Positions 971 to 9,208 of a stretch of 10,726 nucleotides of DNA are shown piece by piece. The stretch spans positions 1 through 10,726 of the forward strand of contig JAHEEB010000061.1 of assembly GCA_024640925.1 (NCBI GenBank), given 5' to 3'. The first letter of the stretch is position 1; each line of letters starts with the position of its first letter. The notes under the pieces are model-generated. The model worked only from the letters and a program-made list of their open reading frames with translations, had not been told where the DNA came from and did not search any database. The position numbers and the translations under genes are program-made. This DNA comes from Bacteroidota bacterium. Its GTDB lineage: Bacteria; Bacteroidota; Bacteroidia; Bacteroidales; UBA10428.

Positions 971-1135
971 GCTCTTTTAATTTCAGGTTTTGACGCAGGT
1001 GGTAATCCAGTTACATATCATACAATGGATGAAACTGCTCAACCCGGTGATCCGAAATTTGTTGATACGGATGGCGATTATGTTATCAAACTGCCGTATT
1101 CAGTTATGTACGGTGGTGAGAGAGGGCAGCAATGA
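971..1135 (+). pseudogene. Gene remnant with a GNPVTY...DTDGDY peptide, ending in a repeat
   Basis: After a TGA at 968-970 this frame is open for 54 codons to a TGA at 1133-1135. It has protein-like composition, with stretches such as SGFDAGGNPVTYHTMDETAQ and DPKFVDTDGDYVIKLPYS. There is no good start codon near the beginning; the first ATG is internal, at MDETAQ. The last codons (MYGGERGQQ) are read out of the group II-like repeat that overlaps its end. The best reading is a fragment of an older, unidentified gene, possibly a secreted protein with a DxDGD loop, joined to a repeat. The longer overlapping frame at 990-1205 gives an unconvincing peptide and was not chosen. Confidence 0.35.
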
Positions 1136-1174
1136 GAAATATTTCGTATCTTTCACTACTCGATTAGCGCCAAT
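1093..1174 (+). repeat. Group II intron DV/DVI-like 3' module, copy 1
   Basis: This copy has TACGGTGGTG, then GAGAGGG, then GAAATATTTCGTATCTTT, then CTACTCGATTAG and GCCAAT. It lines up with the modules near 2392, 5329 and 6391. CCGTA (1094-1098) can pair with TACGG (1109-1113) as a shortened domain V-like hairpin. GAG can pair with the CTC of CTACTC, leaving an unpaired A as expected of a domain VI branch site. The left arm of the apical palindrome is damaged (AATGAG in place of GATGCG). It lies about 130 bases before the fic gene. Confidence 0.5.
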
Positions 1175-1302: not shown

Positions 1303-2373
1303 ATGACAACTTGGGGATTAACGAAATTACCATTAATTATTGACTTAGAATCTAAAAAGGTATTAAAAGCTTTACCTTCTGCGCATGCCGCTTTGGCTGA
1401 GTTAAAAGGAATTGCATCAACAATTCCAAATCAAAATATTCTGATTAACACTCTTGGATTACAAGAAGCAAAAGACAGTTCTGCAATTGAAAATATAATT
1501 ACGACTCATGATGATTTATATAAATCAGAATTGAATCTTGACGCTTTTAAATCGCTTCAAGCAAAGGAGGTTCAGAACTATATTACAGCTTTGAAAAAGG
1601 GATTTGAACTAATCACAAAGACCGGATTACTGACAAATAATAGTATTCTCCAAATTCAAGAAGTATTAGAGGATAATAAAGCTGGATTCAGAAAATTACC
1701 CGGGACTTCCTTAAAAAATGCAGCTACAGGAGAAACTATTTACACGCCACCTCAAGATTTTGAAGAAATAATGGGTTTAATGGCTAATTTAGAGCAATAC
1801 ATCAATGATTCGGAAATGCAAGATTGCGACCCATTGATTAAGATGGCAATTATACATTTTCAATTTGAGAGTATTCACCCATTCTATGATGGAAATGGTA
1901 GGACTGGCAGGATAATAAACATACTTTATTTGATTCTGGAAAAGCTTCAATCTTTGCCGATTTTATATTTGAGTAATTATATAATCAAACACAAACCTGA
2001 TTATTATCGACTTTTACAGAAGGTACGGGATGAAAATATATGGGAGGAGTGGTTGTTGTTTATGATAAATGGAGTCGAACAAACGGCAAAAGAGACGATT
2101 GATTTGATTATCCAAATTAAGGAACTAATGCTTCGATATAAGCACAGATTGCGAGATAATTACAAATTTTATAGTCAAGATTTGTTGAATAATTTGTTCA
2201 AACATCCTTACACAAAGATTGAATTTGTTGTAAATGATTTGGGAGTATCACGATTAACTGCGGCAAATTATTTAAATAAATTGGCAGATGATAAAATGTT
2301 GAGAAAAGATAAATTGGGGACTGGAAATTATTATATTAATGAGGAATTATTTAATTTATTGACAGTGAGATAA
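1303..2373 (+). CDS. Fic family protein (protein AMP-transferase), self-inhibited class
   Basis: The 356-residue protein is a full-length Fic enzyme. These transfer AMP, or occasionally another nucleotide moiety, from a nucleotide to a hydroxyl side chain of a target protein. The active-site motif HPFYDGNGRTGR is intact at 192-203, with catalytic H192. An N-terminal Fic_N region at about 20-75 carries the inhibitory motif S-x-x-x-E-N at 59-64 (SSAIEN), whose Glu63 would block productive ATP binding, so the protein should be auto-inhibited and need no separate antitoxin. The ETIYTPP stretch at 144-150 matches the target-docking flap. The C-terminus (about 300-350) looks like a winged helix, with VVNDLGVSRLTAANYLNKL as the helix-turn-helix. 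It has its own promoter and is followed 18 bases later by a repeat module. The target is unknown. The family call is firm. Confidence 0.95.
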   Translation: MTTWGLTKLPLIIDLESKKVLKALPSAHAALAELKGIASTIPNQNILINTLGLQEAKDSSAIENIITTHDDLYKSELNLDAFKSLQAKEVQNYITALKKGFELITKTGLLTNNSILQIQEVLEDNKAGFRKLPGTSLKNAATGETIYTPPQDFEEIMGLMANLEQYINDSEMQDCDPLIKMAIIHFQFESIHPFYDGNGRTGRIINILYLILEKLQSLPILYLSNYIIKHKPDYYRLLQKVRDENIWEEWLLFMINGVEQTAKETIDLIIQIKELMLRYKHRLRDNYKFYSQDLLNNLFKHPYTKIEFVVNDLGVSRLTAANYLNKLADDKMLRKDKLGTGNYYINEELFNLLTVR

Positions 2374-2391
2374 AATGCACAGGCGATAACC

Positions 2392-2436
2392 CGGAGATGC
2401 GAAATATTTCGTATCTTTCCTTCGATTATGGCCAAT
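2392..2436 (+). repeat. Group II intron DVI-like 3' module, copy 2 (short)
   Basis: CGGAGATGC leads into a near-perfect 20-base palindrome at 2396-2415 (GATGCGAAATATTTCGTATC). TTTCCTTCGATTATGGCCAAT follows with one gap, matching the other copies. The domain V-like part is absent; the sequence upstream is unrelated. The bulged A and CTC seen in the 5329 copy are lost, so this is a decayed fragment. It fills the 92-base gap between the fic and FISUMP genes. Confidence 0.5.
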
Positions 2437-2465
2437 ACTGACATCATACAATAAGAAATAATAAT

Positions 2466-3461
2466 ATGAAAAAAGAGTTAGTTACAATTTTCACTTGTTT
2501 TGTAACAATTGTTACAGCAGCACAAACTGTGATTGATATTGATGGAAATATCTACAAAACAGTTATTATAGGAAAACAAGAGTGGATGGCTGAAAATCTT
2601 CGTGTTACCCATTATGCAGATGGTACATCAATACCAAAAGTTACAAACGATACTTCTTGGCAGTTATTAAAAAATGATTATAACGATGATGCTTATTGTT
2701 GGTATAATTATGACAGTTTAACTTATTATCAATATGGCGCATATTATTCATGGGCAGCAGCAATTAAAAAAGATAGCATTAATGCAATTGATACTAATGA
2801 AATAAAAGGTGTTTGCCCTATGGGTTGGCATATACCTAGCAAGGCTGAGTGGGAAGAATTATTGACATATGTTGATTCCAACACTACCGAAGAAAGCATA
2901 GCTTTTGCCCTAAAGAGTAAAAGTAAGTGGAATAATGATAAAAATGGTTCAGATGAATTTGGTTTTAATGCATTTCCTTATTCATGGAATAATCCATATT
3001 ATGGTTTTGAAAATGTCGGTAATGCTGGACTCTGGTGGAGTAGTCAACCTTATGGTACATGGAGTGATAATGATATATATGAGGATATTTTTGCGTATCG
3101 TTTGAAAATAAGTAAAGGTGATACTGCCGATATAGGTGGAAATTATTACGCTGATTACCTCAATGCGAGTAGATCGGCTGGATTATGTGTCCGTTGTGTT
3201 AAAAATGATGTTACTTCAGGTAATAATCATTATAGAAACAACTTCAATATTTTTCCAAATCCTGCAAATGATAAGATTTATTTTAGTTTTTCGGGATATT
3301 TTAATGGTACGCTCAATATTTACGATCTTCAAGGCAAGAGAGTATTATCAAAAAGGATTAACTCAAATTCAATTGATATTTCGACTTTAAACAAAGGGGT
3401 ATACTTTCTCCAAGTTTCTAATACAAATCAAAAAATAATGAGTAAGTTGATTATTGAATAA
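2466..3461 (+). CDS. FISUMP-domain secreted protein with type IX sorting domain
   Basis: The 331-residue protein starts with a signal peptide (about 1-19, MKKELVTIFTCFVTIVTAAQ). Residues 20-245 match the FISUMP (Fibrobacter succinogenes major paralogous) domain. Its hallmarks are IDGNIYKTVIIGKQEWMAEN at 25-44, YGAYYSWAAA at 90-99, VCPMGWHIPSKAEWEEL at 116-132, LWWSS at 189-193 and the closing RSAGLCVRCVK at 236-246. A C-terminal Por/T9SS type A sorting domain follows at about 258-331 (FNIFPNPANDKI, then KGVYFLQV and KIMSKLIIE). It should be exported by Sec, passed through the type IX system and released or anchored at the cell surface. The domain's biochemical role is unknown. It stands alone, with repeats on both sides. 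Confidence 0.9.
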   Translation: MKKELVTIFTCFVTIVTAAQTVIDIDGNIYKTVIIGKQEWMAENLRVTHYADGTSIPKVTNDTSWQLLKNDYNDDAYCWYNYDSLTYYQYGAYYSWAAAIKKDSINAIDTNEIKGVCPMGWHIPSKAEWEELLTYVDSNTTEESIAFALKSKSKWNNDKNGSDEFGFNAFPYSWNNPYYGFENVGNAGLWWSSQPYGTWSDNDIYEDIFAYRLKISKGDTADIGGNYYADYLNASRSAGLCVRCVKNDVTSGNNHYRNNFNIFPNPANDKIYFSFSGYFNGTLNIYDLQGKRVLSKRINSNSIDISTLNKGVYFLQVSNTNQKIMSKLIIE

Positions 3462-3462
3462 A

Positions 3463-3567
3463 GTAGTTCATGTGGGCTAACAGCCTAACCCCGAAGGGCT
3501 CAGCGAAGCTAACCGACTAAAAGGAGTTCAGCGAAGCTAACCGACTAAAAGGAGCTAGCGCAGCTAA
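3463..3567 (+). repeat. 5' hairpin-type repeat, copy A, with internal 28-bp tandem duplication
   Basis: GTTCATGTGGGCTAACAGCC and CTAACCCCGAAGGGCTCAGC match the copy at 5068 almost base for base. Copy A lacks the leading GGA and the closing ACATGAACTCC arm, so the large hairpin cannot form. A 28-base unit, CAGCGAAGCTAACCGACTAA plus AAGGAGTT, lies at 3501-3528 and is repeated at 3529-3556 with one difference. A third partial unit follows (AGCGCAGCTAA). It begins within two bases of the FISUMP stop codon and runs straight into a gene remnant. Confidence 0.75.
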
Positions 3568-3571
3568 TAAT

Positions 3572-3709
3572 GTTTTGATTTATCTTGTTTCAATTGGTAA
3601 TTTGAATAATTTGTACGTAATTAATGGAATGTCATATAATTATAAAAATCAAAAAGAATCGATTAAAGAATTTAGGAATACGATAAAGACCTTTAAATTT
3701 AAACAATAA
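3572..3709 (+). pseudogene. C-terminal remnant of an unidentified protein
   Basis: The frame reads VLIYLVSIGNLNNLYVINGM followed by SYNYKNQKESIKEFRNTIKT and FKFKQ, ending at TAA 3707-3709. Residue order and composition look like a genuine protein C-terminus (beta strand, then an amphipathic KEFRNTIKTFKF end) and not chance. There is no start codon: upstream the frame runs directly into repeat copy A, which appears to have replaced the 5' part of the gene. The parent family is not recognised. Confidence 0.45.
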
Positions 3710-3751
3710 ACGCTTGCCAACAATATAGGATTTAAGGCACAGTTGAGCCAA

Positions 3752-3789
3752 AAAAGAGGCAGTAGATTATTTATACTACTGCCCCTTTT
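3752..3789 (-). terminator. Rho-independent terminator of the decayed cupin unit
   Basis: GGCAGTAG (3758-3765) and CTACTGCC (3776-3783) form a perfect 8-base stem with a 10-base loop. Flanking AAAAG and CTTTT extend it with one mismatch. On the minus strand the stem is followed by six T residues, placing a terminator just after the TAA at 3798-3796. The shorter T run on the plus side might allow weak termination the other way. Confidence 0.75.
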
Positions 3790-3795
3790 AAAAGA

Positions 3796-3993
3796 TTAGA
3801 CTTTGATATGGCCATGCACCCAGTGTGTATGAAACCTTGCCTTCTGGCACATTTCACGTACAGCCGAAACTCACAGATTTGTACCTTTGCCACCAGCATC
3901 CTCGAATAGTACATTTGTTTTTTGTGCCATGGTTTGTTGCTCGCATCCTAATAGCATCAGGATTGAGGCCAATAAAATAAATGTTGTTTTTTT
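3796..3993 (-). pseudogene. Decayed cupin-like lipoprotein gene
   Basis: On the minus strand a continuous 66-codon frame (counting the stop) encodes KKTTFILLASILMLLGCEQQ, a classic lipoprotein signal peptide with lipobox LLGC. TMAQKTNVLFEDAGGKGTNL follows, then an in-frame TGA at 3873-3871, then VSAVREMCQKARFHTHWVHG and HIKV ending at TAA 3798-3796. There is no ATG: the position before KK reads TAT, suggesting a lost start. The residues GGKGTN and FHTHWVHGH recall a metal-binding cupin core, but most of the fold is missing. So the gene has lost its start, gained a stop and been shortened internally. It sits downstream of the regulator operon, in the same direction, and was probably controlled with it. 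Frame and lipobox are plain; the cupin label is tentative. Confidence 0.6.
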
Positions 3994-4012
3994 ATAACTA
4001 AAATATTTAAGT

Positions 4013-4022
4013 AAGTAGTTAA
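4013..4022 (-). promoter_or_regulatory. Shared motif AAGTAGTTAA, site 1
   Basis: The ten bases AAGTAGTTAA lie just upstream of the decayed lipoprotein gene, about 20 bases from where its start should be. The identical word occurs at 4966-4975 beside the promoter of the membrane protein/regulator operon. It is a candidate operator for the winged-helix regulator at 4050-4340. Confidence 0.3.
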
Positions 4023-4049
4023 TTAAATTAACCAAATTGACAAAAAAAA

Positions 4050-4340
4050 TTATTGCTTAGGGTGAATGTATTTTTGAAGGTTTTTTACATATTCTTCAAA
4101 TGCTGTTCTGCCTTTGTCAGTTATGGAAATAGCTGTGTTTGGATAATTATTTTTAAATGTTTTCTCCACATTAATGTAGCCAGCCTCCTGCAATTTGGTA
4201 ATCTGGATGCTTATATTGCCTGCAGCAGCTTTGGTTGTATCTTTTATAAAGGTGAAATTGGCTTCTCCAACGGTTATTAGAATAGAAACAATTGACAACC
4301 GAAGCTGCGAATGTAATATGGGGTCTAAATCGTTAAACAT
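4050..4340 (-). CDS. Winged-helix transcriptional regulator (HTH_34-like)
   Basis: The 96-residue protein is a single winged-helix DNA-binding domain of the MarR/ArsR-like HTH_34 type. LDPILHSQLRLSIVSIL (5-21) is the usual first helix, and FTFIKDTTKAAAGNISIQIT (29-48) contains the helix-turn-helix. KLQEAGYINVEKTF (49-62) leads into the wing, and ITDKGRTAFEEYVKNLQKYI (73-92) is the final dimerisation helix. It has no ligand or metal-binding domain. Its ATG at 4340 lies inside the last codons of the membrane protein gene (8-base overlap), preceded by AAAGGAA, so the two are probably translationally coupled. In Bacteroidetes such regulators are often paired with a small membrane protein. Its target is probably its own operon and perhaps the decayed lipoprotein gene. 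Confidence 0.88.
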   Translation of the reverse strand: MFNDLDPILHSQLRLSIVSILITVGEANFTFIKDTTKAAAGNISIQITKLQEAGYINVEKTFKNNYPNTAISITDKGRTAFEEYVKNLQKYIHPKQ

Positions 4341-4926
4341 TTTCCTTTTTTTTAGCTATATTAAGTAGTATTCCCGGTATAATAAATCCTACCACCGATC
4401 CCAGCATCAAGCTGAACCCATGATATTCCCTACCAACTAAGAAAGTACCGAATCCAATTAAATTCAATAAAATACCACCAATTATAAGCGGTTTAAATTT
4501 TATTGATACTCCGGCCATAATAATCATTATAGCTAGCAAAATTATAAAAATTGGGGCTAAATCATTACCAAGATGATCACCAAAGACAAAACCTAATATC
4601 ATAAGGTTCATACCAACCACCCAACCTATTGTTCCTAATATCCTTCCAAGGATATTCTTGGGTATCTGATTCTTTTTTTCTTTTCCCCTTACATAGATAA
4701 ATGTATAGATTGCCCCAAGCGGGAATAAAACACAAGTCCACACAATATCAAATTTCTTGTACAATCCCACTAATTCAAAAAAATACTGAAGAAAAAATAC
4801 AGAAAACGTTATACTGCCCCACAAAACAATGATGTGGCCATTTTCCTGAAATCTTTGTTTAGTCTCTTCTATTGTCTTAGAAATTAGTAAGAGACTTTCT
4901 TCTGGTGTTAAATTATGTTCATCCAT
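4333..4926 (-). CDS. Six-helix membrane protein paired with the regulator
   Basis: This 197-residue protein has a soluble N-terminal helix at about 7-28 (TPEESLLLISKTIEETKQRF), then six hydrophobic segments at about 32-52, 62-80, 93-117, 123-143, 146-165 and 171-190. It ends in a basic tail, KKKENV. I do not recognise a named family and see no enzyme motif. The 8-base overlap with the winged-helix gene and the shared promoter indicate one operon. The inner-membrane protein may sense a signal for the regulator or be its main target, but this is inference. Confidence 0.85.
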   Translation of the reverse strand: MDEHNLTPEESLLLISKTIEETKQRFQENGHIIVLWGSITFSVFFLQYFFELVGLYKKFDIVWTCVLFPLGAIYTFIYVRGKEKKNQIPKNILGRILGTIGWVVGMNLMILGFVFGDHLGNDLAPIFIILLAIMIIMAGVSIKFKPLIIGGILLNLIGFGTFLVGREYHGFSLMLGSVVGFIIPGILLNIAKKKENV

Positions 4927-4957
4927 AGTTTAATTTGTTAATGAATTTAAATTAACA

Positions 4958-4989
4958 CAAATATAAAGTAGTTAAAGTTATAAACCAAA
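4958..4989 (-). promoter_or_regulatory. Promoter of the membrane protein/regulator operon
   Basis: On the minus strand TTTG (4989-4986) is followed after 20 bases by TATATTTG (4965-4958), an excellent match in sequence and spacing to the Bacteroidetes TTTG/TAnnTTTG promoter. The -33 box lies inside the palindrome CAAATATATTTG (4986-4997). The leader to the ATG at 4926 would be about 25 bases. Confidence 0.7.
4966..4975 (-). promoter_or_regulatory. Shared motif AAGTAGTTAA, site 2
   Basis: AAGTAGTTAA abuts the -7 element and lies between it and the -33 box, where a bound repressor would block RNA polymerase. It is identical to the word at 4013-4022. The neighbouring AAAGTTA partly repeats it. 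Autoregulation by the winged-helix protein is the likely use, but it is not shown. Confidence 0.35.
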
Positions 4990-5067
4990 TATATTTGACA
5001 ATTATTATTAAAATTGTATTCGAACATAGAGTAATAGATGAATAATAACTACTAGCCACAACAAATA

Positions 5068-5412
5068 GGAGTTCATGTGGGCTAACAGCCTAACCCCGAA
5101 GGGCTCAGCGCAGCTAACCGACTATAAGGAGCTCACCGTAAGGTAAACATGAACTCCCGGTTGAACTAAAACTAAAACCCGGACTGGCGGCTATGTTAAA
5201 AGAGCAGAAACGCTGAAATCAAAGGGTTGAATTAAAAAATAAAAAAGCACCCCAATTTTAAAAACTACCATAAACAAAAGGCTTTACACCTATGAGTGAA
5301 ATATTCGTCAGATATAGCCAGGTTTAACGAACCGCCGCATACCGGCCGACACGGTGGTGTGAGAGGGCGGAGATGCGAAATATTTCGTATACTTCCTACT
5401 CAATTAGCCGCA
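5068..5412 (+). repeat. Full-length structured repeat, copy B (putative non-autonomous group II-like element)
   Basis: This is the most complete element. Its 5' part is a large hairpin closed by GGAGTTCATGT (5068-5078) and ACATGAACTCC (5147-5157), with inner stems GGCT/AGCC and CCC/GGG. A shared middle segment follows, with GGCGG, GTTAAAAGAGCAGAAAC, GCTGAAATCAAAGGG and GCACCCC. The 3' end is a domain V/VI-like module. Copy C at 6200-6486 shares the same order over its whole length. No reverse transcriptase or other reading frame lies inside. The upstream edge is shared with the copies at 6200 and 8353 as AAATAGGAGTTCAT, and the downstream edge is near TTAGCCGCAA. It lies between the regulator operon and the toxin-antitoxin pair. 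Confidence 0.7.
5329..5405 (+). ncRNA. Group II intron domain V/VI-like structure within copy B, copy 3
   Basis: ACCGCCG (5331-5337) pairs with CGGTGGT (5352-5358) over seven bases with one G-U, as in the lower stem of a domain V hairpin. The upper part is about four bases shorter than the canonical 34. After TG, GAGAGG (5361-5366) pairs with CCT-A-CTC (5395-5401), leaving A5398 unpaired 6-7 bases from a possible 3' end at CAAT or CAATT, as expected of a domain VI branch point. The domain VI tip is the 20-base near-palindrome around CGAAATATTTCG. Pairings are read directly; intron ancestry is inferred. Confidence 0.5.
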
Positions 5413-5426
5413 ACCTAAAAAGATAA

Positions 5427-5498
5427 TTACGTGTAGCCATAAAAAAATATCACGTAAGATTTAAAATGTACGTAATTATTTATTATATTTGCACGTAA
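5427..5498 (+). promoter_or_regulatory. Operator-like cluster of four ACGTAA repeats before the antitoxin gene
   Basis: ACGTAA occurs at 5452-5457, 5470-5475 and 5493-5498, and as its complement TTACGT at 5427-5432. The outer pair forms an inverted repeat (AATTACGT with ACGTAATT), and two copies share the longer CACGTAA. They flank and overlap the -7 box at 5484-5491. Type II antitoxins with DNA-binding heads usually repress their own promoter through such repeats, so this is a likely autoregulatory operator. Confidence 0.5.
5484..5491 (+). promoter_or_regulatory. -7 element (TATATTTG) of the toxin-antitoxin operon
   Basis: This is an exact TAnnTTTG match 20 bases before the ATG at 5511, giving a very short leader. 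A clear TTTG is missing at the expected -33 position, where the ACGTAA repeats sit instead. This would suit a promoter controlled by the antitoxin. Confidence 0.5.
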
Positions 5499-5510
5499 AA
5501 TATTTTGATT

Positions 5511-5756
5511 ATGGATACTAAATTAACATTGAATGTAGATAAAAATGTGATTGAACAAGCTAAAGAATATGCTAAATCACATAAAATAAGCCTTTCTCGA
5601 TTAGTAGAATCCTATCTTTCTTCTTTAAATTCCAAAAAAGATAGGGAGATAGAGATTACTCCCTTAGTTAAAAGTTTAAGTGGTGTAATCAAATTGGAAA
5701 ATGATTTTAACTATAAGGAAAGCTATACTGACTATTTAATTGAGAAATACAAATGA
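5511..5756 (+). CDS. Antitoxin of the DUF6364 / ribbon-helix-helix type
   Basis: The 81-residue protein begins MDTKLTLNVDKNVIEQAKEY, the pattern of DUF6364 antitoxins. A short beta strand (KLTLNV) is followed by two helices (VIEQAKEYAKSH and LSRLVESYLSS), i.e. a ribbon-helix-helix DNA-binding head in residues 1-45. The C-terminal tail, with TPLVKSLSGVI at about 46-56 and a charged YTDYLIEKYK end, should bind and neutralise the toxin. I chose the ATG at 5511 over an in-frame TTG at 5505, because conserved homology begins MDTKLTL. The stop overlaps the toxin start in ATGA. It should dimerise, bind the ACGTAA cluster and repress the operon. Confidence 0.85.
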   Translation: MDTKLTLNVDKNVIEQAKEYAKSHKISLSRLVESYLSSLNSKKDREIEITPLVKSLSGVIKLENDFNYKESYTDYLIEKYK

Positions 5757-6178
5757 GTAAAATACTGATAGATACTAATATCGTGATTGATTTATTAGCT
5801 AAAAGGGAACCATTTTATAAAAGTGCTGCACAATTATTTTCTTTAGCTGATAAACAAAAATTAGAATTATCAATTAGTTCGCTGACTTTTGCAAATACCA
5901 ATTATGTTTTATCCAGATTAAAATCGACTCAAGAAGCTCGTGAGATTTTAAGACGATTCCGTGTCTTGATTGAAGTATTACAGCTAAATGATAAATTAAT
6001 TGATTTAGCCTTAAATGATAATAATTTTAAAGATTTTGAAGATGGATTACAATATTATACAGCGATTGAAAATGAACAAGATATTATAATCACAAGGGAT
6101 TTAAAGGATTTTAAGGAATCAAAAATTCCAGTAATGACAGCAGATGAATATTTGGTATCAATAGATCAACAAAGATAA
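5753..6178 (+). CDS. PIN-domain toxin (VapC-like ribonuclease, PIN_3 group)
   Basis: The 141-residue protein is a single PIN domain. Members of such pairs are metal-dependent ribonucleases that cleave specific RNAs and stop growth when free of antitoxin. The first acidic residue is D7 in ILIDTNIVIDLL. A second acidic cluster is E96-D97 in DFEDGLQYYTA, and D116 lies in IITRDLKDF; KIPVMTADEYL closes the domain. Many VapC proteins have a conserved Glu near residue 45. Here the matching stretch reads SSLTFANTNYVL with Asn, which also occurs in the PIN_3 subgroup and need not mean inactivity. The start overlaps the antitoxin stop by four bases (ATGA), typical of coupled translation. No other gene lies in the operon. 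Confidence 0.88.
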   Translation: MSKILIDTNIVIDLLAKREPFYKSAAQLFSLADKQKLELSISSLTFANTNYVLSRLKSTQEAREILRRFRVLIEVLQLNDKLIDLALNDNNFKDFEDGLQYYTAIENEQDIIITRDLKDFKESKIPVMTADEYLVSIDQQR

Positions 6179-6390
6179 AAGACCAGTGGCTAATAAATAG
6201 GAGTTCATATGGGCTAACAGCCCAACCACGATGGGCTCAGCACAGCTAACCGACTAAAAGGAGCTCACTGCAAGCTAAACATGAACTTCCTGTTGAACTA
6301 AATTCAGCCTGGCGGTTATGGTAAAAGAGCAGAAACACTAAAATCAAAGGGTGAAAAAAAAATAAAAAGAGTCAACACGCCATGTTTATC

Positions 6391-6486
6391 GGACCACCGT
6401 TTACCGATCGGTATCCCGAAGTACTTCGGGAGTGGTGTGAGGGTAGCGATGCAAAATATTTCGTATCTTTCCCTCGATTGTGCCAT
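6391..6486 (+). ncRNA. Group II intron domain V/VI-like structure within copy C, copy 4
   Basis: GGACCACCGTTTACCGATCG carries the left lower arm (ACCAC, which pairs with GTGGT at 6432-6436). Its intact upper stem is TACCGATCGGTA (6402-6413), complete where copy B is shortened. An 18-base palindrome splits the right arm. In the domain VI part GAGGG (6439-6443) pairs with CCCTC (6471-6475) around ATGCAAAATATTTCGTATC, and the unpaired branch A of copy B is gone. CGATTGTGCCAT closes it, as in the other copies. Confidence 0.5.
6414..6431 (+). repeat. Perfect 18-bp palindrome inserted in the DV-like hairpin
   Basis: TCCCGAAGTACTTCGGGA is its own reverse complement. It sits between the upper stem and the right lower arm of the domain V-like hairpin, where copy B has only a few bases, so it looks like an insertion into copy C. 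Short self-complementary inserts of this sort are scattered in Bacteroidetes genomes. Confidence 0.6.
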
Positions 6487-6547
6487 TGTAAAAAAAGACG
6501 GTGCAACTATGAAAACTTTTTTTGTCATTTAAGGAATATTTGAAAAT

Positions 6548-7636
6548 ATGAAAATCAGCCTACTTATTACATGGATATTGTTTTCAATTTTAGTCTACTC
6601 CCAACAAAAAGATGGATTTAAGATTGTAAAACTAATTGAAAGCACACCGATTAAAAATCAGCAATCATCAGGAACATGTTGGAGTTATGCGACAACTTCG
6701 TTTATTGAAACAGAAGCTATTAGGGCGGGTAAGAAGTCTGTGATTCTTTCTCCGATTTTTTATGTACACCCAACATATATGGGAAAAGCGGAAAAATATG
6801 TTAGACTACAGGGAAATGGTTATTTTGCTGATGGTGACTTAACATTTAGTGTTATGGATGCCTACAAAAAATATGGTGCTATACCTGATGCAATTTATAA
6901 TGGATTTGTTGATAATGAAAATCGCCATGATGACGGCGAAATGCAAAATCTATTACAGGCAATGGTTAAATCCGTTGCAACTTCGGGATATGATAAAATA
7001 AAGCAAAACAGCTGGCGAAAAGCATTTGAAGGGACATTAAATGCTTATCTTGGTGCAATTCCAGACTCTTTTGATTACGAGGGCAGGTATTATTCTTCAA
7101 GGTCATTTGCCGATAAATATATCGGGATAAATCCGGAAAATTATTTAGAAATTACAAGTTATAGCCATCACCCTTTTGATAATAAATTCATTTTGGAAAT
7201 TCCCGCAAACTGGAATAATAACTACTATGTAAATTTAACAATTTTGGATTTTAAAAACGTGATTGATAATGCTATTAATCAAGGTTACTCGCTTTGTTGG
7301 GATGGCGATGTTACCGAATCTGGATTTGATGAAGAAAAAGGGCTTGCAGAAATAAAAGGGAGATATCAGAATGAAAAAGTTATTACCCAAGAGATGAGAC
7401 AATTTACTTTCAACAACTATACTACCAAAGATGATCATAATATGCATCTGATTGGAATAGCGAAAGACAAAGACGGTAAAAACTATTATATTCTTAAGGA
7501 TTCGAATGGAAACAATAATGATTGTGGAGGATATATTTATATGTCAGAGAACTATTTGCTTTTAAAAACAATTTCAGTGATGGTAAATAAAGATGCTATT
7601 CCAAATGATATTAAATTGAAATGTAAATTTGAATAA
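6548..7636 (+). CDS. Secreted C1-family cysteine peptidase (PepC / bleomycin hydrolase-like)
   Basis: The 362-residue protein has a signal peptide (1-18, ending VYSQQ). A papain-fold peptidase of the Peptidase_C1_2 (PepC, bleomycin hydrolase) type follows. The oxyanion Gln is Q38 and the nucleophile C44, in PIKNQQSSGTCWSYATTSFI (34-53); the six-residue spacing equals that of papain. The catalytic His is most likely H300 in DDHNMHLIGIAKD. The third residue, normally Asn in NSWG, is Asp: the segment reads KDSNG with D318. GGYIYMSENYLL and VNKDAIPNDIK match the family C-terminus. Classical PepC enzymes are cytoplasmic hexamers, whereas this one is exported, as are several Bacteroidetes relatives. 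It appears to be a single-gene unit. Peptidase identity is firm; full activity is uncertain because of D318. Confidence 0.9.
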   Translation: MKISLLITWILFSILVYSQQKDGFKIVKLIESTPIKNQQSSGTCWSYATTSFIETEAIRAGKKSVILSPIFYVHPTYMGKAEKYVRLQGNGYFADGDLTFSVMDAYKKYGAIPDAIYNGFVDNENRHDDGEMQNLLQAMVKSVATSGYDKIKQNSWRKAFEGTLNAYLGAIPDSFDYEGRYYSSRSFADKYIGINPENYLEITSYSHHPFDNKFILEIPANWNNNYYVNLTILDFKNVIDNAINQGYSLCWDGDVTESGFDEEKGLAEIKGRYQNEKVITQEMRQFTFNNYTTKDDHNMHLIGIAKDKDGKNYYILKDSNGNNNDCGGYIYMSENYLLLKTISVMVNKDAIPNDIKLKCKFE

Positions 7637-7682
7637 ACTGATAAAACAACGTTGCATAAAAACAAGGTATAACCAATAAAGG

Positions 7683-7714
7683 GTTTAGCTTTGCTGAGCT
7701 CCCTTCGGTCGGTT
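7683..7714 (-). repeat. Inverted fragment of the 5' hairpin repeat, copy D
   Basis: Read on the minus strand, AACCGACCGAAGGGAGCTCA followed by GCAAAGCTAAAC matches the AACCGACTAAAAGGAGCTCA and GCGCAGCTAAAC core of the plus-strand copies at 27 of 32 positions. Neither outer arm is present. It is the only copy in opposite orientation. Confidence 0.5.
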
Positions 7715-7734
7715 CAGTGATATGCGAAGCTCAT

Positions 7735-7788
7735 ATATATGATGAAAAAGGCAATAGGATTAAAAAGCTAGAAAATGCAAACACATAA
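7735..7788 (+). pseudogene. Possible C-terminal gene scrap (IYDEKGNRIKKLENANT)
   Basis: After the inverted repeat fragment, a short frame reads IYDEKGNRIKKLENANT and ends in TAA at 7786-7788. The peptide is protein-like, but it is only 17 codons, has no start, and its parent is unrecognised. It could be chance. The rest of the 228-base gap between 7637 and 7864 shows nothing I can name. Confidence 0.2.
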
Positions 7789-7864
7789 AAACTAGAGTAA
7801 TCATACGATTTATTGAATATTATTAGTGGAAAACTTATACCAATAATTATAATCACCATTTTAT

Positions 7865-8257
7865 ATGAATACTAAAAAACTTATTTCTATTGGAAAATCT
7901 TTAGCAGTAGCTATTTTGATTTTAGGAATAATCCATGATATTGCAACTTTTACGCCTGTAATTCAAGGTGGCTTAACATGTTTAGCTTCTTCTGATTTTA
8001 AGGCTGTTGTATACATTAGCTTGATATGTGGCACGTCTCTAATATTATGCGGGTTGCTTCTGATATTGTTATTCAAAAAAGTAGAACAATTTTCGTTTTT
8101 AGTTTTACACATTTTAGTTATCGGGACTTTTCTTGCAATTAATGGAATTTTAGCAGTTGTAAGTGTGATTGAGAATCCATTTGGTTGGATTGCTCTATTA
8201 TTAAGCCTGATAATGGTTGGGATTATTATTAAAATCAAGGCAGATTTAAAAGTTTGA
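7865..8257 (+). CDS. Small four-helix membrane protein of unknown function
   Basis: The 130-residue protein has four hydrophobic segments, at about 12-30, 48-70, 77-101 and 107-123, joined by short loops, with basic ends (MNTKK and KIKADLKV). I recognise no family and see no catalytic motif. HDIATFTPVI after the first helix and ENPFGWIALLL before the last are the most distinctive stretches. The codon pattern and clean ATG support a real gene. An overlapping minus-strand frame at 7963-8268 is its antisense shadow. It stands alone, with no gene in the same direction within 200 bases. Confidence 0.75.
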   Translation: MNTKKLISIGKSLAVAILILGIIHDIATFTPVIQGGLTCLASSDFKAVVYISLICGTSLILCGLLLILLFKKVEQFSFLVLHILVIGTFLAINGILAVVSVIENPFGWIALLLSLIMVGIIIKIKADLKV

Positions 8258-8352
8258 ATCGAACCCATGTTGAGACTAATTACTTAACCCGATTTAAAAT
8301 GTTTAAAAAATACTGGAATAATTTAGAAATATAGCACAACACCCAATAAATA

Positions 8353-8451
8353 GGAGTTCATATGGGCTTACAGCCCAATCCCAGGGCACACAGGTAGGCA
8401 ACCGACTGAAAGGAGCTCAGCGCAGCTAAATATGAACTCCCGGTTGAAAAA
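8353..8451 (+). repeat. 5' hairpin repeat, copy E (without the 3' module)
   Basis: GGAGTTCATAT (8353-8363) pairs perfectly with ATATGAACTCC (8430-8440). Copy B has GT and AC at the matching positions, so a base pair changed from G-C to A-T with pairing kept. The inner stem GGGCT/AGCCC and the core AACCGACTGAAAGGAGCTCA with GCGCAGCTAAA are present. After CCCGGTTGAA similarity to copies B and C stops, so the middle and the DV/DVI-like end are missing. The upstream edge AATAAATAGGAGTTCAT is the same as in copy C. It fills most of the gap at 8258-8608. Confidence 0.7.
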
Positions 8452-8467
8452 CTCCTTCAGCAAGGAG
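8452..8467 (+). other. Perfect short hairpin after repeat copy E
   Basis: CTCCTT (8452-8457) and AAGGAG (8462-8467) form a 6-base stem with a CAGC loop. There is no T run, so it is not a standard terminator. It starts where similarity to the repeat ends and may be a remnant of it. Confidence 0.4.
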
Positions 8468-8573
8468 AAGATTAAGCAGAATATTCTAAACGTAAGAGTT
8501 TGTGAATCAAATAAAATTTAAATTTATTTTAAAATTGTTTTTGATTGATAACAAGAAACATTTTATAACAATA

Positions 8574-8581
8574 TAGATTTG
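8574..8581 (+). promoter_or_regulatory. Candidate -7 element (TAGATTTG) of the nitroreductase gene
   Basis: TAGATTTG fits TAnnTTTG and lies 27 bases before the ATG at 8609, giving a short leader. TTG words at 8541 and 8545 are 26-30 bases upstream, farther than ideal for a -33 box, so only the -7 part is supported. Confidence 0.4.
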
Positions 8582-8608
8582 TTATGAAATGCAATTGATA
8601 ATTCAATT

Positions 8609-9208
8609 ATGACAAATAGATTGAAGCTTCCAAAGCCACAAAAAGACCTTGATTTTCCTTTAATGAAAGCAATAGAAATGCGTCGGACAAAAAGAAAATG
8701 GAATGATTCATGCCTTTCTGATCAAGAGATTTCTAATGTATTATGGGTTGCTTGTGGAATTACTCACGAAGAAACGAAAAGAAGCAAAAGCAGAAGAACA
8801 GCTCCTTCTGCCTGTAATTCGCAGGAAATAAAAGTATTTATTGCTATGCATAAAGGACTTTTCCTTTATGATGAAAAAAAACATCAGCTTATTAAAATTC
8901 TTTCAGAAGACATCAGAAAAGATATAAGTACTCAAAAAATGATGCATTCTGCACCAGTTGGACTTATTTATGTTTCTGATTTTACTAAAATGAAGACATT
9001 TCTCTTCAAGGATGATAACCGAAAATGGTTTACTTCAACAGCCGATACGGGTTTTATCAGTCAAAATGTTTATCTGTATTGTGTAGCAGCCAATTTGAGT
9101 ACAGCAATCATCAGTTTGGTAGACCGTGAAAAACTTCATAAGATTATGGGATTGGCCGATTTTGAAAAAGTTATTTATACGCAGGCAATAGGTAAATTAG
9201 ACAACTGA
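8609..9208 (+). CDS. Nitroreductase family flavoprotein
   Basis: The 199-residue protein is an FMN-dependent nitroreductase-fold oxidoreductase; these usually work as homodimers using NAD(P)H. MKAIEMRRTKRKW (19-31) holds the FMN-phosphate-binding basic residues, and RRTAPSACNSQEIKVFIAM (62-80) is the family's RxxPSxxNxQ-type second flavin segment. HSAPVGLIYVSD follows at about 133-144. STADTGFISQNVYLYCVAAN begins near 162 and forms the central helix that lines the flavin site. It has no signal peptide, so it is probably cytoplasmic, whereas some Bacteroidetes relatives are exported. Length is normal. Substrate cannot be predicted: nitro compounds, quinones or enones are possible. It is a single-gene unit between repeat copy E and the small frame at 9352. 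Confidence 0.88.
   Translation: MTNRLKLPKPQKDLDFPLMKAIEMRRTKRKWNDSCLSDQEISNVLWVACGITHEETKRSKSRRTAPSACNSQEIKVFIAMHKGLFLYDEKKHQLIKILSEDIRKDISTQKMMHSAPVGLIYVSDFTKMKTFLFKDDNRKWFTSTADTGFISQNVYLYCVAANLSTAIISLVDREKLHKIMGLADFEKVIYTQAIGKLDN

Follow-up and report, generated by a model that had tools for sequence, protein, structure and literature searches.

What is the origin of an element that joins a long palindrome to the 3' end of a group II intron and occurs twice in one bacterial contig? The window analyzed here is that whole contig (10,726 nt, the 10.7-kb G000:C313), from a Bacteroidota assembly of 5.67 Mb in 1131 contigs that is 82% complete. The two elements, copies B and C, have the layout that a first-pass annotation had described, namely a long palindrome, a common middle and an end resembling intron domains V and VI (DV, DVI), as seen in repeats D1 and D6 and in the sequence itself; also as described, neither contains a reverse transcriptase, and no such ORF appears in the ORF list of the window. 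The borders first given (5068-5412 and 6200-6486) hold roughly, but the conserved unit begins at 5060 in B and 6192 in C, and the intron-like 3' end lies at 5404 and 6478. From 1303 to 9208 the majority of genes are co-oriented with the elements: Fic, a FISUMP protein with a type 9 secretion tail, a DUF6364/PIN-toxin pair, a C1-like peptidase, a small membrane protein and a nitroreductase. The opposite strand carries an HTH and membrane-protein pair (4050-4926) and also genes at both contig ends. The features needed below are as follows.

1088..1164, plus strand: third junction, an intron end alone, upstream of the Fic gene (covariance model 32.1 bits; RF00029 24.2 bits)
2392..2427, plus strand: fourth junction, with just a DVI hairpin and an ATT core left, past the Fic gene (repeat D4; blastn 100% over 28 nt)
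3455..3565, plus strand: palindrome without intron end, continuing from the FISUMP stop codon (repeat D1)
5049..5062, plus strand: left box of copy B (R''-like), last bases CAAC (sequence; set from 30 aligned palindrome starts)
5060..5170, plus strand: large palindrome of copy B, AGGAGTTCATG...CATGAACTCCCGGTTGAAC, read as attC-type (repeat family D1)
5171..5247, plus strand: shared middle of copy B, with AAAAGAGCAGAAAC (repeat D6)
5248..5404, plus strand: intron 3'-end remnant of copy B, with maturase C-terminal codons, DV and DVI (blastn, covariance model)
5403..5416, plus strand: right box of copy B (R'-like), ATTAGCCGC
5505..6178, plus strand: cassette between B and C, a toxin-antitoxin pair of a DUF6364 protein and a PIN-domain (VapC-like) protein (ORFs, Pfam PF19891 and PF13470)
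6181..6194, plus strand: left box of copy C, GACCAGTGGCTAAT, partly complementary to the box after B
6192..6302, plus strand: attC-type palindrome of copy C (repeat D1, 89% to B)
6379..6478, plus strand: intron 3'-end remnant of copy C (blastn, covariance model)
6477..6490, plus strand: right box of copy C, ATTGTGCCATTG
8345..8448, plus strand: palindrome without intron end, upstream of the nitroreductase gene (repeats D2 and D7)

A degenerate palindrome-like stretch with its order inverted also lies past the peptidase gene (7640-7740); its arm at 7684-7714 is 87% complementary to 8400-8430, and it is perhaps an older cassette junction. The loop of the palindrome contains a roughly 28-nt unit, AACCGACTAAAAGGAGCTCAGCGCAGCT, whose copy number varies, as seen at 3481-3565 in the window, at 6043-6190 of L046 (contig C140) and at 29-270 of L044 (C314), so that site length varies by tandem repeat.

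Rfam models, with which the first-pass annotation had proposed to compare the DV/DVI part, gave no match to B or C in the window up to E 1; the sole window match was RF00029 at 1089-1164, whose 24.2 bits fall under the gathering threshold of 40. A covariance model (R1) made from 19 intron ends of other genomes, with E-values that are rough, recovers both copies in a search of 134 kb: 5329-5404 in B (39.3 bits, E 1.2e-7) and 6391-6478 in C (22.2 bits, E 0.0022), with 1088-1164 between them in score (32.1 bits, E 7.5e-6). A regular expression for an intact domain V matched 0 of 27 ends and was set aside, since it matched 0 of the 19 references either.

The full intron with a matching end and a reverse transcriptase, which the first-pass annotation had proposed to look for, is present in the genome. 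It lies on contig C234, is 1854 nt long, begins GTGCGCCCGG and ends CTACTCGAT, and encodes a 442-aa maturase (intron-encoded protein, IEP) scoring 368.8 bits against a group II maturase cut-off of 300, with RVT_1 and GIIM as its only domains (E 0.001). By blastn, the remnant in B corresponds to nt 1664-1854 of this intron (77%), and that in C to nt 1750-1847 (87% over 6379-6474), which bears out the suggestion of a group II intron end in the 3' part. The shared middle at 5171-5247 has no match to the full C234 intron, and its source was not found. Neither copy matches the intron 5' of nt 1664 or 1750, respectively, and domain I, which holds the exon-binding sites for target recognition, is therefore absent from both. 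By eye, domain V lacks some distal-helix and bulge bases in B, and has lost the CGC triad in C. With the 5' part missing and DV damaged, B and C do not read as complete, splicing group II introns, and neither splicing nor retrotransposition is expected of the remnant.

The C234 intron is itself assigned to class IIC by the stem-loop insertion of its relatives, the lack of an En domain and the CGC triad. The triad is that of class IIC domain V as described in PMC7923331, and its columns are invariant in 19 relatives. Among the matches listed (one genome per species, best 80), the closest relative is in Carboxylicivirga linearis (69%); in a tree of 29 rows with a midpoint root, the two group together with full support, next to another clade made up of mostly Bacteroidota introns. 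A CCCGATGTACATCGGG hairpin in the 3' strand of the C234 domain V (L040 1486-1578) is also found in several remnants; the C234 intron may itself be dead, or the hairpin insert in DV may be tolerated. A second intron, on C226, retains nt 1-337 and 1332-1854, with the maturase gene cut.

The borders of both introns are informative about the target. They read ...TATACTCACCGT/GTGCGCCC...CTCGAT/TAGGCAC in C234 and ...CATATAGTTCCGACCGT/GTGCGCC...CTCGAT/TAGCTG in C226, and by eye both introns follow attC-like palindromes, inserted between the GT and T of a GTT box (...CACCGT/.../TAGGC and ...GACCGT/.../TAGCTG). Among 79 loci gathered from relatives, 38 were examined for borders and both ends were readable in 18: all seven Bacillota introns follow T-rich, terminator-like hairpins (by eye), and 10 of the 11 Bacteroidota introns are inserted at GT/T, including one of Carboxylicivirga (L077) inserted in the cassette direction. 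The longest ORF downstream of these 11 Bacteroidota introns points the opposite way in six (L094, L115, L124, L136, L149, L150) and the same way in four (L077, L130, L146, L151), and is absent in one. By eye, a palindrome of the B/C type stands directly before the intron of Leeuwenhoekiella L151, and stands without an intron in L070 of genome G026; on this ground we take the hairpin on the 5' side for the attC and the rest, on the 3' side, for the remnant of the intron.

The composite elements are numerous in this genome. Copy B has at least 55 matches on 20 contigs (best 40 of 77 candidates scored), and pattern searches in 24 of the 1131 contigs found 30 palindrome starts and 27 intron ends, spread over 17 of those searched. 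Three further pattern matches without a DVI hairpin were excluded, of which the one on C314 may be real with a decayed end. The end pattern demanded ATT, leaving an end on C142 (core ATC) uncounted, so cores other than ATT are under-counted. At E 0.001 the covariance model finds at least 25 intron ends here (best 150 of 287 candidates) and 0-5 in each of 22 other family genomes. Twenty of the 25 belong to the remnant family and five to other intron types (C286, C234:52, C637:1757, C633 and C419). These other group II intron-type ends, at L036 (C637) 1757-1832, L040 (C234) 52-181, L179 (C286), L180 (C633) and L181 (C419), lie in some cases near GTT/ATT-like borders, and that at C637 1757-1832 scores 68.8 bits against Rfam RF00029.

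Site length is 148-460 nt in 17 of 19 sites, and 1147 and 7967 nt in two with other inserts or genes; interiors are as little as 67% identical, and some sites lack the palindrome or DVI. At the junctions L043 (C329) 2681-3906 and L039 (C875) 2903-3465 there is an additional insert, which carries CCAACCCCTTAGTAAGG repeats and a small, disrupted ORF that we take to resemble a DUF559-type endonuclease. When the C234 intron was compared by BLAST to 21 contigs, the junctions matched its 3' end only. Alignments at 11 junctions start at nt 1726-1727, and others at approximately 1654-1664, 1733-1750 and 1803-1818; the shared breakpoint of the 11 points to their common descent. Identity to the intron ranges from 100% over its last 128 nt (the C637 remnant) down to 72%. 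Beyond its own genome copy B has matches in 7 of 59 genomes, all of 26-46 nt and mostly in unrelated settings; only the palindrome in G026 and introns in that genome and in G008 depart from this. In a distant relative, G059, a 26-nt palindrome piece around CCCCGAAGGGCTCAGCG (L060, L068) is present 11 times; both of the loci that were read have it within an inverted repeat of another kind.

Complementary end boxes are the relation between the two ends of an integron cassette. We found this relation on the far side of the genes that follow the elements: the bases after an intron end (ATT and about 12 more) are complementary to those before the next palindrome, beyond the gene. Over 17 intervals from intron end to palindrome, a mean of 6.6 of 11 variable bases pair, versus 3.65 for all combinations, and none of 20,000 permutations was as good. 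For nine of the 17, no other palindrome among 30 scores higher than the cassette's own partner, while in eight the own partner is not top. An ORF was called in 16 of the intervals, in all 16 on the strand of the element. Across the element itself (20 elements) there is no pairing (p 0.94), ruling out that its two flanks form one inverted repeat. The pairing set comprised 30 ends including the three later excluded, none of which is in the 17 cassettes and one (C314) in the 20 elements.

Read in the other direction, an upstream partner box scoring at least 11/13 exists for 12 of 29 palindromes (controls 6.2%), and the remaining 17 have no strong partner. Seven of the 12 partners have ATT and are preceded by an intron end, a group that overlaps with the 17 cassettes; the other five have GTT and are preceded by other sequence. 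The base before TT thus goes with the upstream site, which is what exchange at G^TT predicts. Of these five, the partner on C637 is located 11 nt past the end of another intron type. Ordinary attC-like palindromes were recognized by eye on C329 and C793, and a cassette on C329 running from one ordinary site to another obeys the pairing rule, including a fixed mismatch at position 11 (by eye).

The cassette-specific complementary R''/R' boxes of attC sites, with end boxes as given in PMC7923331, are thus found over the 17 cassettes and weakly in the window. The cassette between B and C pairs at 5 of 11 positions by Watson-Crick rules (7 of 11 with G-T; rank 4 of 30), and in a wider partner scan the left box of C scored highest elsewhere, with a value like that of controls; how B and C are read therefore rests on their family. 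The RYYYAAC/GTTRRRY consensus with G^TT does not hold for the composite sites, which read ATT, though RRRY partly does (by eye). The predicted bottom-strand fold joins a site's own right box to its left box (at least three expected pairs) in five of nine sites, with copy C among the four others.

We conclude that B and C are very probably attC-like sites of an integron-type cassette array, the right half of each being a group IIC intron remnant inherited through the array. Counting for this reading are the far-side pairing, the cassettes that start after ordinary sites, the intact insertions at GT/T, the shared breakpoint, the enrichment of intron ends in this genome and an integron integrase in a congener. 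Weighing against it are the missing integrase in this genome, the weak pairing between B and C, the cassettes and palindromes lacking a strong partner of their own, the long sites, the ATT core and the four sites whose predicted fold does not join the boxes. Of the two origins first proposed, a structured repeat with a borrowed intron end came nearer; we read its 5' hairpin as an attC-type palindrome and the units as separators of gene cassettes, which the first-pass annotation could not see. Four steps can be drawn up, of which the sequences show the first two: (i) A group IIC intron inserted on the cassette strand into the right box of an attC-like site, between GT and T, as at the two intron borders above; the GTT box then becomes ATT, because the intron ends in GAT and the T of the box follows. 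In copy B the ATT core of the right box is indeed the intron's final AT plus the cassette's T. (ii) Later deletions removed domain I and most of the maturase gene. (iii) The last bases of the intron (fewer than 40 to approximately 190) were kept, presumably since the right core of the site now comes from them. (iv) The composite site would afterwards have been propagated across the array, either together with cassettes or from one to another, the putative agent being integrase, gene conversion or cassette formation. Integrase alone moves whole cassettes; gene conversion of interiors, or new cassettes formed with an existing site, would both fit. The composite site is still a candidate for recombination, in which the intron's AT would belong to the core.

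Alternatively, the array may be dead, its composite forms being fossils of attC sites that can no longer recombine and that spread by homologous recombination or gene conversion. This agrees with our reading on origin, of which it is a sub-case, and competes with it on function; we regard it as a serious possibility, though not the probable one. No integrase was found in this 82% complete genome, where a search for integron integrase gave seven weak matches, the best at 71.2 bits versus a cut-off of 265; a match on C909 is a partial recombinase beside what looks like an IS91-type transposase, and one on C432 we take for a XerC/D-like protein. The arrangement that defines an integron, intI with attI in cis, was thus not seen in this genome. 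Of 23 family genomes one, the congener G006, has an integron integrase above the curated cut-off (422.5 bits; cut-off 265), on a contig where no cassettes were seen. Loss of the palindrome or DVI at some sites also favors a dead array, as does a pair of composite sites on C329 (L043 1419-1764 and 4893-5238) that are 99.7% identical over 346 nt. Their identity runs about 22 nt beyond the core into the leaders of two different genes, and the left box matches in one cassette and not in the other; exchange confined to the core would not produce such an extension. On exchange at the core, the homologous cassettes of C111 and C226 (93% over 816 nt) decide nothing, since the homology continues through DVI. 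Against a dead array, box pairing has been kept in about half of the cassettes (the nine of 17 that are top-ranked) despite the divergence of site interiors.

That the elements are instead an independent structured repeat (REP- or MITE-like), unrelated to integrons, which captured an intron end, is improbable. The 26-nt hairpin pieces found in other settings in distant relatives such as G059 would suit it, but it explains neither the far-side pairing rule, nor the GT/T insertions in ordinary attC-like sites, nor the palindrome of the same type directly before the Leeuwenhoekiella intron. Least likely, to the point that we give it hardly any weight, is a bacterial SINE-like family of deleted, IEP-less intron derivatives mobilized in trans by the C234 maturase, as also first proposed: a full intron with its IEP and the same 3' end is at hand (as the C637 remnant illustrates) and copies are many in one genome, but domain I with its exon-binding sites is absent in B and C, domain V is damaged in B and without its CGC triad in C, what predicts the flanks is the far-side gene and no common target, and the borders act like cassette junctions rather than recent intron insertions.

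Group IIC introns in attC sites are already known; what appears to be new here is the use of intron ends as part of attC-like sites. As described in PMC7923331, group IIC-attC introns insert after the attC stem-loop at the GT/T core (TTGT/T), within the R'' sequence of the attC bottom strand, with an orientation opposite to that of the cassettes. Those introns (e.g. S.ma.I2 of Serratia marcescens) resemble ours, so far as that account goes, in IIC type, attC stem-loop and GT/T, and the Bacteroidota relatives of the C234 intron do likewise; unlike them, C234, C226, Carboxylicivirga L077 and the remnants occupy the right box and are oriented with the cassettes, and the remnants, which lack an IEP, are numerous. 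Integron attC sites and CALINs (attC clusters without integrase) share the one-direction array, the complementary cassette-specific boxes and the toxin-antitoxin cargo, whereas here the right core ATT comes from an intron end, most sites measure 148-460 nt, and the genome has no visible integrase.

Both group IIC-attC introns of integrons, on the opposite strand, and class IIB introns, some of them truncated, have been reported in arrays (PMC7923331, PMC4424553). In particular, 5'-truncated introns occur in cassette arrays of Halorhodospira halochloris and the Tanatar-5 soda lake (Sonbol and Siam 2021; PMC7923331), where UHB.I2 directly follows an attC and has the orientation of the cassettes. 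As set out in that account, the set comprises four introns from three arrays; three of the introns are class IIB, and IEP pieces are recognizable in them, while we count 27 IIC-type ends, 11 with one breakpoint, that form part of the site. Intron-assisted cassette formation is likewise a published proposal (Leon and Roy 2009, as told in PMC3053210). In the open-access literature searched, we found no description of attC-like sites that have an intron end as a fixed and multiplied component, and no paper bringing together integron, Bacteroidetes, attC and group II intron.

A bolder, speculative extension, which taken as a whole we hold to be rather unlikely, is that group IIC introns in attC right boxes supply a substitute core, the intron end both functioning in recombination at the site and recording how cassettes originate, and that recombination or reverse transcription of such intron-bearing sites attaches attC to new genes. 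If so, the 11 junctions beside different genes with one tagged attC would be a natural trace of intron-assisted cassette formation. The intron scar marks some two dozen cassette junctions in this genome, and the descent of attC sites can therefore be traced from gene to gene. It also suggests that the right box of an attC can be rebuilt from foreign sequence.
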